Below, one piece after another: positions 21,132 to 24,733 of a stretch of DNA of 52,034 bases (position 1 is its first letter; each line of letters starts with the position of its first letter). This stretch comes from an uncultured Burkholderiales bacterium. GTDB taxonomy: Bacteria > Pseudomonadota > Gammaproteobacteria > Burkholderiales > Burkholderiaceae_C. The DNA lies in the NCBI GenBank assembly GCA_903956845.1, contig CAJBOO010000167.1, positions 1-52,034 on the forward strand. The letters run 5' to 3'. The notes beneath the pieces were generated by a model. That model saw only the letters and a list, made by a program, of their open reading frames with translations, searched no databases and was not told the origin of the DNA. The translations under genes were made by a program, and so were the position numbers.

Positions 21132-21338
21132 ATGGCAACAGGTACAGTGAAATGGTTTAACGAGTCCAAAGGTTTTGGTTTCATTACTCCCGAAGACGGC
21201 GGCAAAGATTTGTTCGCTCATTTTTCCGCGATCCAGAACCAAGGTTTCAAAACCCTGGCAGAAGGTCAACGCGTTAGCTTTGAAGTGACCACCGGCCCCA
21301 AAGGCCTGCAAGCGTCCAACATCAAAACCGCCGACTAA
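21132..21338 (+). CDS. cspA: Cold shock protein CspA family
   Basis: The 68-residue single-stranded nucleic acid chaperone begins [20 protein letters not shown], with RNP1 (KGFGFI) and RNP2-like (DLFAHFSAI) motifs and the C-terminal ASNIKTAD. It has the standard length of the family. It is preceded by a long leader and followed 24 nt later by infA, so cold-regulated co-expression of a translation factor is plausible. A 5-bp hairpin (AAGCG/CGCTT, 21337-21351) lies in the cspA-infA gap, without a T tract. Confidence 0.96.
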
Positions 21339-21362
21339 GCGCTCAACGCTTCAGGCAGTCAG

Positions 21363-21620
21363 ATGTCCAAAGAAGAAATGCTGGAAATGTCCGGCTTGGT
21401 GCGTGAGGTGCTTCCCGACTCACGCTACCGAGTCACTTTGGACAACGGCCACGAACTCGTGGCCTACACCGCAGGCAAGATGCGCATGCACCACATCCGC
21501 ATCTTGGCCGGCGACAAGGTCACGCTGGAGCTCTCTCCATACGACATGACCAAAGGTCGCATCACCTTTCGCCACATTGAAGGCAAAGGCCCCGGCGGCC
21601 CTCGGAAGCGCCGGTTTTGA
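21363..21620 (+). CDS. infA: Translation initiation factor IF-1, extended form
   Basis: The 85-residue S1/OB-fold factor binds the ribosomal A site at initiation. The core is clear: [53 protein letters not shown] in pieces, ending ITFRH. Instead of stopping near residue 72 as canonical IF-1 does, it continues with a glycine/arginine tail ([11 protein letters not shown]). That tail resembles the second IF-1 gene found in many betaproteobacteria, while the primary infA usually sits with the ribosomal protein operon. Here it is in a cspA-infA-methyltransferase set, and its stop overlaps the next start (TTGA). Confidence 0.92.
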
Positions 21621-22361: not shown

Positions 22362-23747
22362 ATGTCCTCGCCTTCAGACCACCATTTCATGGGCTTGGCC
22401 TTGCAGCAAGCGCAGTTCGCGCAAGACGCGGGCGAGGTGCCTGTGGGGGCAGTGGTGGTGCGGGATGGCGAGGTCATCGCCCAGGCGCACAACGCCCCGA
22501 TTGGCTTGCATGACCCCAGCGCCCATGCCGAGGTGTTGGCCCTCAGAGCCGCTGCCGCCAAGCTAGGCAACTACCGCTTAGACAACTGCACCTTGTATGT
22601 GACCTTGGAGCCCTGCGCCATGTGCGTCGGTGCAGCCTTGCACGCCCGTGTGAAGCGGGTGGTCTGGGGCGCAAGCGAGCCCAAAACCGGTGCGGCTGGT
22701 TCGGTGGTGGATTTATTTTCCCAGCCGGTGTTGAACCACCATACCGACAGCCAAGGTGGGGTGAGGGCAGACGAGGCCAGCGCGATGCTGCAAGGGTTTT
22801 TCAAACAACAACGACAACAGCACAAGGATCAAGCCATGCCGCACCGTTTGCGCGATGACGCTTTGCGAACCCCAGACGAACGCTTTGCCCAACTGCCTGA
22901 TTACCCATGGACACCACAGTACCGCCATGACCTGCCATCCCTAGACGGATTGCGCATGCATTACCTCGACGAGGGCCCCAAGGATGCGCAGATCACCTGG
23001 CTGTGCCTGCATGGCAATCCTGCGTGGAGCTACCTGTACCGCCGAATGATCCCGACATGGTTGGCAGCCGGTCACCGGGTGGTGGCCCCCGACATGCCCG
23101 GCTTTGGTAAGAGCGACAAACCGAAAAAAGACAGCGCACACCGGTTTGATTGGCACCGTCAGGTCTTGCTTGAATATGTCGAAGCCATGGATTTGCGAGG
23201 CATCAACCTGGTGGTGCAAGACTGGGGCGGCATCTTGGGGCTGACCTTGCCCATGGCGGCGCCAACGCGGTACCAAGGCTTGTTGGTGATGAACACCATC
23301 TTGGCCACCGGCGAACAAGCCCTGAGCCCCGGTTTCTTGGCGTGGCGACACATGTGTGCAGACAAACCCCTGTTTGACGTGGGCAAGCTGTTTGCCCGGG
23401 GCAACCCCCACATGACTGCCGCTGAATGCGAGGCCTACAACGCCCCCTTTCCAGATGCCGGGCACCGCGCTGCCTTGCGTGCTTTTCCACCCATGGTCCC
23501 TGAACATGCCGACAGCGAGGGCGCGGCGGTTTCGAGACAAGCCAAGCAGTTTTGGTCCACCCAGTGGACGGGCAAGAGCCTGATGGTGGTGGGGCAACAA
23601 GACCCGGTCCTGGGAGAGTCGGTCATGCGTGAATTGCACGGTGCCATTCGCGCTTGCCCCGAGCCTGTGGTGTTGCCGCAAGCGGGGCATTTTGTTCAAG
23701 AGCATGGCCAAGCCATTGCTGCGCTGGCCTTGCAGCATTTGGCTTGA
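22362..23747 (+). CDS. tadA: TadA tRNA deaminase fused to DhlA-type haloalkane dehalogenase
   Basis: One uninterrupted 461-residue frame with two full enzymes. Residues 1-158 are TadA, which makes inosine 34 in tRNA-Arg: zinc ligands His55 (HAE, with proton-shuttle Glu57), Cys85 and Cys88 (PCAMC), plus VVWGASEPKTGAAGS. Residues 159-461 closely resemble Xanthobacter haloalkane dehalogenase DhlA, a family I alpha/beta hydrolase. They hold nucleophile Asp287 and halide Trp288 (VVQDWGG), second halide Trp328 (FLAWRH), Asp414 (VGQQDPVLG) and His443 (AGHFVQEHG). ATG 22836 begins the second part in frame and has AAGGA 7 nt upstream, so separate translation of the dehalogenase is also likely. The linker is only a few residues. 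Halide-releasing activity is inferred from the residues. Confidence 0.9.
   Translation: MSSPSDHHFMGLALQQAQFAQDAGEVPVGAVVVRDGEVIAQAHNAPIGLHDPSAHAEVLALRAAAAKLGNYRLDNCTLYVTLEPCAMCVGAALHARVKRVVWGASEPKTGAAGSVVDLFSQPVLNHHTDSQGGVRADEASAMLQGFFKQQRQQHKDQAMPHRLRDDALRTPDERFAQLPDYPWTPQYRHDLPSLDGLRMHYLDEGPKDAQITWLCLHGNPAWSYLYRRMIPTWLAAGHRVVAPDMPGFGKSDKPKKDSAHRFDWHRQVLLEYVEAMDLRGINLVVQDWGGILGLTLPMAAPTRYQGLLVMNTILATGEQALSPGFLAWRHMCADKPLFDVGKLFARGNPHMTAAECEAYNAPFPDAGHRAALRAFPPMVPEHADSEGAAVSRQAKQFWSTQWTGKSLMVVGQQDPVLGESVMRELHGAIRACPEPVVLPQAGHFVQEHGQAIAALALQHLA
22824..22838 (+). promoter_or_regulatory. Internal Shine-Dalgarno and ATG at the TadA/dehalogenase junction
   Basis: AAGGA at 22824-22828 is followed by a 7-nt spacer and ATG at 22836-22838, in the reading frame of the fused gene. 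It marks exactly where TadA homology ends and dehalogenase homology begins, so it can serve as an independent start for the second enzyme. Confidence 0.6.
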
Positions 23748-23812: not shown

Positions 23813-24733
23813 ATGCACATTTACCTGTACTCCCCCTCCGGCGCGGTGCGCGACAAAGCGGCTTTGCGCCTGGCGGTCAAACGCCTGGGCAAGCTGGGCC
23901 ATGATGTTGAACTGGACCCGGCTGCGCTGAGCAGCTCCAAGCGGTTCGCGGGCGAGGACGATGAGCGCTTGCTCGCGATCAGCCGTGCAGCCGCCAGCGG
24001 CGCAGACATCGTCATGCCGACACGTGGCGGGTATGGCCTCACGCGCTTGCTCAAACACCTGCCCGTCAAAGCCATTGCCCAGTCGATCAAGGGCGGTACC
24101 CGCTGGGTGGGTCACAGCGACTTCACTGCGTTGCAAATGGCGGTGCTGGCCAAAACCCGCGCAGTCACCTGGGCGGGGCCGCATGCCTGTTTCGACTTTG
24201 GCGCGAAAGACATGGACGACATCACCCTGGCTTGCTTTGACGACATGGCACAGGGCAGGGGAGAGGGCGCGGGTTGGCGTTTGCCCGCTGCCGACCTTGA
24301 ACACCTGCCTCAAAAGGCCTTGTTGGCCGAGCACGCCACCTTGTGGGGCGGCAACTTGAGTGTCTTGTGCAGCATGGTGGGCACGCCTTATCTGCCATCG
24401 ATCACGGGTGGCGTCTTGTTTTTGGAGGACGTGGCCGAGCATCCTTACCGTGTCGAGCGCATGTTGACCCAGTTGCTCAACGCAGGCCTCTTGGCCCAGC
24501 AAAAAGCCATTGTGTTGGGGAGTTTCAGCGACTACCAACTCAGCAGCCATGACAAGGGATTCACCCTCCATACCGTGGTGGCGTGGCTGCGCAGCCAAAC
24601 CAAAACCCCGGTCTTGACCGGATTGCCTTTTGGCCATGTGGCCACCAAACTCTGCTTGCCTGTGGGCCAAGAAGTGTCCCTGTTGCGCGAAGGCCGTGAA
24701 GCCTTTTTGCTGTGGGCACACCACGCCCATTGA
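23813..24733 (+). CDS. ldcA: LD-carboxypeptidase (peptidase S66)
   Basis: Cytoplasmic enzyme that removes the terminal D-alanine from murein tetrapeptides during cell-wall recycling. The 306-residue protein has the S66 N-terminal motif IYLYSPSGAVRD, the PTRGGYGLTRLL segment, catalytic Ser102 in WVGHSDFTAL, then the Glu in LFLEDVAEHPYRVERML and the His in GLPFGHVATK that complete the triad. No signal peptide is visible, as expected for the recycling enzyme. It follows the TadA-dehalogenase frame by 65 nt. Confidence 0.9.
   Translation: MHIYLYSPSGAVRDKAALRLAVKRLGKLGHDVELDPAALSSSKRFAGEDDERLLAISRAAASGADIVMPTRGGYGLTRLLKHLPVKAIAQSIKGGTRWVGHSDFTALQMAVLAKTRAVTWAGPHACFDFGAKDMDDITLACFDDMAQGRGEGAGWRLPAADLEHLPQKALLAEHATLWGGNLSVLCSMVGTPYLPSITGGVLFLEDVAEHPYRVERMLTQLLNAGLLAQQKAIVLGSFSDYQLSSHDKGFTLHTVVAWLRSQTKTPVLTGLPFGHVATKLCLPVGQEVSLLREGREAFLLWAHHAH

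Follow-up and report, generated by a model that had tools for sequence, protein, structure and literature searches.

Introduction

What is a haloalkane dehalogenase doing at the end of a tRNA deaminase? This question is raised by a gene of an uncultured Burkholderiales bacterium (contig CAJBOO010000167.1), in which a TadA domain and a DhlA-type dehalogenase domain are read in a single frame. The whole stretch of DNA that was analysed, 52,034 nucleotides long, is referred to here as the window. A preliminary description of the gene saw either a true bifunctional protein or a gene pair whose stop had been lost while an internal start remained, and it knew of no functional link between the halves. 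Both protein families are well known; what is apparently new is their union in one chain, together with its spread through the family, a probable second origin and its repeated decay to a tail that carries residues specific to the fused form. The evidence assembled below leans toward the reading that TadA gained an accessory C-terminal domain from the dehalogenase, which is complete in the window and eroded elsewhere.

Results

Two complete domains in one frame

The fusion gene with its parts and the ldcA-like gene described below lie on the + strand. The tadA-hld fusion gene (22362..23747) runs from an ATG start to a TGA stop and encodes 461 amino acids without internal stops, which bears out the 461-codon stop-free frame reported initially. 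The TadA domain, residues 1-158 (22362..22835), exceeds the cut-off of the NCBIfam TadA equivalog NF008113 (195.7 bits against 150, residues 5-158), has TadA 1z3a as its nearest solved chain in phmmer (E 1.4e-45), and carries His55, Glu57, Cys85 and Cys88 in the HAE and PCxxC zinc motifs. The RibD equivalog TIGR00326 gives the fusion 50.8 bits, under its cut-off of 156. Of two deaminase-domain matches in the genome of the window, the fusion is the sole TadA and the second is RibD (TIGR00326, 346.7 bits, cut-off 156).

The remainder, residues 166-461 (22857..23744), is a haloalkane dehalogenase domain of subfamily I, as identified by NF002043 (312.8 bits, cut-off 265, residues 166-459) and by structure matches of the model; its nearest solved chains by phmmer are DppA 2xt0 (E 7.1e-108) and DhlA (E 1.2e-90). 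Sequence and alignment place the nucleophile Asp287 next to Trp288 (23220..23225), the catalytic acid Asp414 at 23601..23603 and the catalytic base His443 at 23688..23690, and Trp328 (23343..23345), the second halide-binding Trp, aligns with the GFTAW Trp of DhlA, which we take to be W175. Each zinc and pentad residue named in the preliminary description is found at the position given there.

The two domains are connected by the linker LRDDALRTP (residues 163-171, 22848..22874), which is mostly retained in intact and eroded fusions alike; its strict form, LR[DE]DA[LVI]R, occurs in 101 of 125 fused loci. With the window protein and 77 named relatives as input, AlphaFold2 gave a model with a mean pLDDT of 90.2 and a pTM of 0.66, in which the linker is soft (block means of 63 and 74, residues 151-170). 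Each half of the predicted structure is confident and the relative placement of the halves is not; because of the pTM and the soft linker, the model lends no support to a domain interface. The predicted dehalogenase half can be overlaid on 7avr, 2xt0 and 1b6g (Z 45.6, 45.5 and 43.5, respectively) at 1.3-1.8 Å over 296-297 residues. Structure-search matches covered residues 155-461 only, and the TadA half was matched to 1z3a by sequence.

The segment upstream of the fusion gene (21132-21620) encodes translation initiation factor IF-1, which TIGR00008 scores above its cut-off, and a cold-shock protein that reaches 120.2 bits with the CspE model NF049933 (cut-off 120). On the 3' side of the fusion gene lies an ldcA-like muramoyltetrapeptide carboxypeptidase gene (23813..24733; NF008424, 301.7 bits, below the cut-off of 378).

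Spread of the fusion

The preliminary description proposed comparing the tadA locus among relatives. Among named genomes, the best 80 of at least 586 confirmed dehalogenase stretches are all in one frame with TadA (80/80); in three of them the contig ends inside TadA. These loci come from isolates as well as assemblies of Limnohabitans, Hydrogenophaga, Acidovorax, Polaromonas, Ramlibacter, Curvibacter, Caenimonas and Rhodoferax, and the same-frame fusion is also present in single-contig genomes (e.g., G349, G320 and G086). The fusion is neither an artefact nor peculiar to the genome of the window.

A survey of the family with about one genome per genus (140 genomes, 126 genera) found a TadA match at E 1e-25 in 135 genomes. 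When a tail of at least 100 residues past Arg151 is counted as a fusion, 81 of these 135 TadA genes are fused, 33 with the full pentad and 48 without it, and 54 are unfused, 35 by examination of the locus and 19 as inferred from frames of at most 271 residues; the loci examined thus come from 116 genomes (33, 48 and 35). At the same threshold, five family genomes of 90-100% completeness (G089, G121, G131, G163 and G192) gave no TadA match, through either true absence or a gap in the assembly. Within the genus of the window (84 genomes), 50 loci could be classified among the matches listed: 27 intact, 17 eroded, 5 unfused and one cut. Across the order (200 genomes), the matches listed, best first, include fusions beyond the first family in two genomes of a second family (f3) only; four of five f3 genomes are fused. 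In the phylum (299 genomes), matches beyond the family cover the dehalogenase half only, at a threshold of E 1e-60 that would miss most eroded fusions. The TadA-dehalogenase chain is widespread in a large group of bacteria from fresh water and soil.

Gene order and origin

An ldcA gene lies downstream on the tadA strand in 39 of the 40 unfused loci and, past the added domain, in 73 of the 80 named intact, 36 of the 46 eroded and 11 of the 14 other intact loci, counts that include stretches ending too early to show the downstream neighbour. The tadA-ldcA order is old. A tree of TadA alone was resolved too poorly for counting erosion events (its starred branches force 2-3), and LdcA was therefore added, leaving 155 of 180 rows, namely those with enough LdcA. 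A branch with SH-aLRT 100 divides this tree in two. On one side are 118 rows, of which 63 are intact, 50 eroded and 5 unfused; the 37 on the other comprise 34 unfused rows, the two f3 fusions and one eroded row. This topology is compatible with a single fusion event in the first-family clade. The unfused rows L054 and L055 diverge first and may always have been without the domain. By contrast with these, L052 and L053 sit deep among fused rows in a starred group of 9, so the domain has been lost outright at least once, and because it was lost within the fused clade it is dispensable; an outright loss is probable for L056 as well. The eroded fused TadA L155 (G195) sits on the unfused side of the tree, as a possible transfer or a misplaced long branch.

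Did all fusions arise from one event? In the dehalogenase tree, the fused domains of the first family group together (SH-aLRT 93 and 85) and adjoin the standalone L088 and L286, and the f3 fusions fall within a standalone group. A single-origin constraint was not rejected with all 98 rows (p-AU 0.273) and was rejected (p-AU 0.0014) after the long-branch rows L091 and L033 were dropped and the first-family fused rows were thinned to 37, a trimmed set that was altered after the first result was known. One origin for all fusions is disfavoured on these two results, and the fusion probably arose twice, the second time independently in f3. A separate search for TadA positions that distinguish fused from unfused proteins returned residue 90 alone, which we read as a clade signal.

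Repeated loss of the active site and retention of other residues

The preliminary description considered both halves catalytically intact, which agrees with the residues of the window gene but not with the family. Among 142 distinct fused sequences, the pentad DWWDH is present in 77, and the TadA His-Glu-Cys-Cys set is whole in 140, the other two being cut by a contig start. Where the pentad is incomplete (48 surveyed fusions), Asp287 survives in 3 cases, Asp414 in 4 and His443 in 4. Under a strict pentad label, which leaves out L051 (cut by a contig end), the TadA+LdcA tree requires 16 changes between intact and eroded, and its starred branches give 6 independent pairs; a looser label that counts L091 (pentad DDWDH) as intact gives 17 changes and 7 pairs, and the strict figures were adopted. 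Since regain of a lost pentad is implausible, these changes are mostly losses.

What remains after the active site is gone? Eroded tails retain Arg164 and Asp166 in 63 of 64 rows, and Ala167, Arg169, His217, Asp244, Gly247, Gly249, Ser251 and Asp252 in all 64. Arg169 and the six residues from His217 to Asp252 are common to free dehalogenases and may have a structural role. Other retained positions distinguish fused from standalone domains in a residue comparison that omits L086, L087 and L033 and places L091 on the eroded side. At Lys255-Lys256 (23124..23129), position 255 is Lys in none of 20 standalone enzymes and in 74 of 74 intact first-family fusions, and is Lys or Arg in 64 of 64 eroded tails; at position 256, 18 of 20 standalone enzymes have an acidic residue and 60 of 64 eroded tails have Lys or Arg. 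Gly367-His368-Arg369 (23460..23468) are fused-clade residues retained in part after active-site loss: Gly367 occurs in 0 of 20 standalone enzymes, 74 of 74 intact fusions and 86% of eroded tails, and Arg369 is kept in just 63% of the latter. Two of the six fused-specific sites (331 and 332) are gone in eroded tails. When six eroded C-terminal parts were scanned against Pfam, all six matched Abhydrolase_1 at E <= 1e-4, four of them above the cut-off.

Tail dN/dS, taken from pairs of 60-98.5% identity with both dS values below 2.5 and each sequence used once, is 0.06-0.30 in 35 intact pairs, similar to that of TadA (one of them the second-family pair L086/L087), and 0.12-0.52 in 17 eroded pairs. 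Selection on eroded tails is relaxed, with dN/dS still below 1, and since tail dN/dS exceeds that of TadA in 16 of the 17 eroded pairs, the tail is partly decaying.

These data bear on the alternative that the protein is a plain bifunctional enzyme, whose halves are independently useful, whose hydrolase activity is selected, and whose eroded relatives are on their way to losing the domain. The complete pentad in 33 of 81 surveyed fusions and in the window protein and the 77 named relatives of alignment A3, themselves chosen as best dehalogenase matches, would fit it, as would the TadA-like dN/dS of intact tails and the occurrence of outright loss. However, eroded tails stay in frame across many genera, keep fused-clade residues and have dN/dS below 1, and plain decay should strike the 255-256 loop as hard as Asp287. 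We consider this alternative rather unlikely.

Several individual tails depart from the general pattern. In L139 (G144), the tail stops at 115 residues and the dehalogenase match continues past an in-frame TAA, through either tail loss or error. L170 (G155), which is classed as eroded, has a 430-residue tail with the linker RLREDALRLP and no BLAST match to the dehalogenase half, being either extremely diverged or rebuilt. L297 (G355:C1), from the genus that also includes the 'GLWDH' eroded rows L114 and L122, lies in a single-contig genome, and there TadA ends in one frame and the dehalogenase tail is in another, which would be a sequencing error or a real split. The genus of the window itself includes strongly divergent tails of 26-33% identity (L044-L047 and L049-L051, with L051 cut by a contig end): HDAS replaces QDWGG and SDRFKK replaces SDKPKK in L044-L047, and the 330-aa eroded subgroup L049/L050 has HDWSAQ, with SDHLRS as its 255-256 loop.

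A possible internal start at the junction

In the window, the Shine-Dalgarno-like AAGGA (22824..22828) stands 7 bases 5' of the ATG of Met159 (22836..22838), just before the segment whose homologue forms the N-terminus in free dehalogenases. The motif and ATG at 22824-22838 probably mark the start of the ancestral dehalogenase gene, and the ATG might still yield a free dehalogenase. Could the gene thus have two products, a fused TadA and a free dehalogenase from 22836? The 78 intact fusions have 35 junction ATGs, 17 of which follow a Shine-Dalgarno match of at least 5 bases; in the rest of these genes, 28 of 976 in-frame ATGs do so. In the named set the figures are 14 of 37 and 24 of 976. One junction comparison omits 11 of the 78 intact, 3 of the 64 eroded and 15 of the 80 named sequences, in which the linker falls outside the search expression; L091 is taken as intact in the motif counts, in the row counts of junction ATGs and in the TadA-only and looser-label TadA+LdcA trees. 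Both f3 genes examined have GAGGAG-N6-ATG, and eroded genes have ATG in none of 1024 junction codons, compared with 370 of 23374 codons elsewhere; 0 of 64 eroded rows have a junction ATG. The junction ATGs resemble starts of a once separate gene, and some may still be in use.

On the other hand, a junction ATG is absent from 43 of 76 intact rows, which rules out a conserved internal start as a general rule, and an ATG with a Shine-Dalgarno motif was not found at the junction of five near relatives of the window. Moreover, the sequences are related, and once the tree is taken into account erosion and ATG loss are not significantly linked (3.1 of 7 pairs differ, median p 0.25); the junction motif may also be a relic. 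Two products from one gene therefore seem improbable. Each alternative of the preliminary description holds in part: a true single chain is supported by conservation of the fusion over many genera, and a lost stop with a surviving internal start agrees with AAGGA and ATG 22836 and with some intact relatives, but not with the five near relatives.

It is still less probable that the tail is a passenger without positive function, kept because shortening it would expose or misfold the C-terminal helix of TadA. Most retained residues are indeed core alpha/beta-hydrolase structure common to free enzymes, and dN/dS is elevated in eroded tails, but tail-less TadA occurs within the clade (L052/L053) and core packing leaves the gained lysines unexplained. 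An assembly or frameshift artefact that joined two genes is hardly conceivable: nothing in favour of it was found in the window, and the same-frame named loci, including isolates, together with the single-contig genomes rule it out for the family.

Discussion

How might a free dehalogenase have become an accessory domain of TadA? We propose that a DhlA-type gene was inserted between tadA and ldcA in the ancestor of a large Comamonadaceae-like clade, and that the stop codon preceding it was then lost to give one chain, although the steps may have come in a different order. Conservation, synteny and trees support the insertion and the stop loss. The TadA half, as the sole TadA of the genome and a member of its family, would keep its usual task of making inosine 34 in tRNA-Arg(ACG). 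The dehalogenase half would have turned into an accessory domain, with its full active site lost in at least 6 lineages, or about 16 by parsimony. Eroded lineages keep the linker, the basic 255-256 loop, Gly367 and portions of the alpha/beta-hydrolase fold from its first half. The kept parts would most likely steady TadA or touch tRNA beside the C-terminal helix of TadA. In the species of the window, where the hydrolase site is complete, haloalkane hydrolysis may also take place.

Repeated loss of the active site with partial retention of the domain suggests a new job beside TadA, and the earlier view that there is no functional link is probably wrong, as 48 of 81 surveyed fusions have kept a tail without a full dehalogenase active site. 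Contact with tRNA or TadA is suggested by the lysines, which are newly gained and retained. The last helix of TadA lies near the substrate in TadA-based base editors and in RNA-bound TadA, and the dehalogenase domain is attached directly to this helix. A more specific and decidedly tentative idea is that TadA, an essential tRNA editor, took up the dehalogenase as a domain for regulation or RNA contact: a ligand or halide in the dehalogenase pocket could tune inosine-34 formation in intact members, and eroded ones would be left with the part serving TadA (linker, basic loop and Gly367 segment). TadA can manage without the domain, since L052/L053 lost it, and most of the kept residues, being common to free dehalogenases, may be plain fold structure.

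The TadA-dehalogenase fusion was not found in the open-licence papers searched, a sample that does not establish its absence from print, and it goes unmentioned in the parts of PMC13355053 and PMC11658234 available to us. For its dehalogenase use case, the enzyme-mining study PMC13355053 discarded sequences that carry further Pfam domains, a step that would hide the TadA-fused group. Dehalogenase counts of this bacterial family include proteins that are possibly kept for another reason. The fusions look like a natural series from enzyme to non-catalytic accessory domain on a housekeeping protein, with parallel repeats and members ranging from intact to dead, and the role of the second domain for TadA becomes directly testable in culturable Limnohabitans, Acidovorax and Hydrogenophaga.

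How does the fusion compare with known systems? It shares with TadA (NF008113; 1z3a, 2b3j) the full domain, the zinc and proton-shuttle residues and its status as the only copy in the genome, but 40 unfused relatives end 0-66 residues past Arg151, whereas the window protein has 310 more. With the subfamily I enzymes DhlA (1b6g), DppA (2xt0) and DpaA (7avr) it has the fold and the pentad in common at 46-55% identity; those are single-domain chains, whereas the window domain is C-terminal to TadA, and Lys255 and Gly367 are absent from 20 of 20 standalone dehalogenases compared and Lys256 from 19 of 20. RibD-type bifunctional deaminases likewise join two catalytic domains in one chain, with a zinc deaminase as the N-terminal one, although their second domain is a different one. 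The halves of RibD serve one pathway; for TadA and the dehalogenase we know of no common pathway. Pseudoenzyme domains, which are retained after catalysis is lost, resemble the eroded relatives, which keep parts of the fold without the active site; what differs here is that one fused family runs from intact to dead members.
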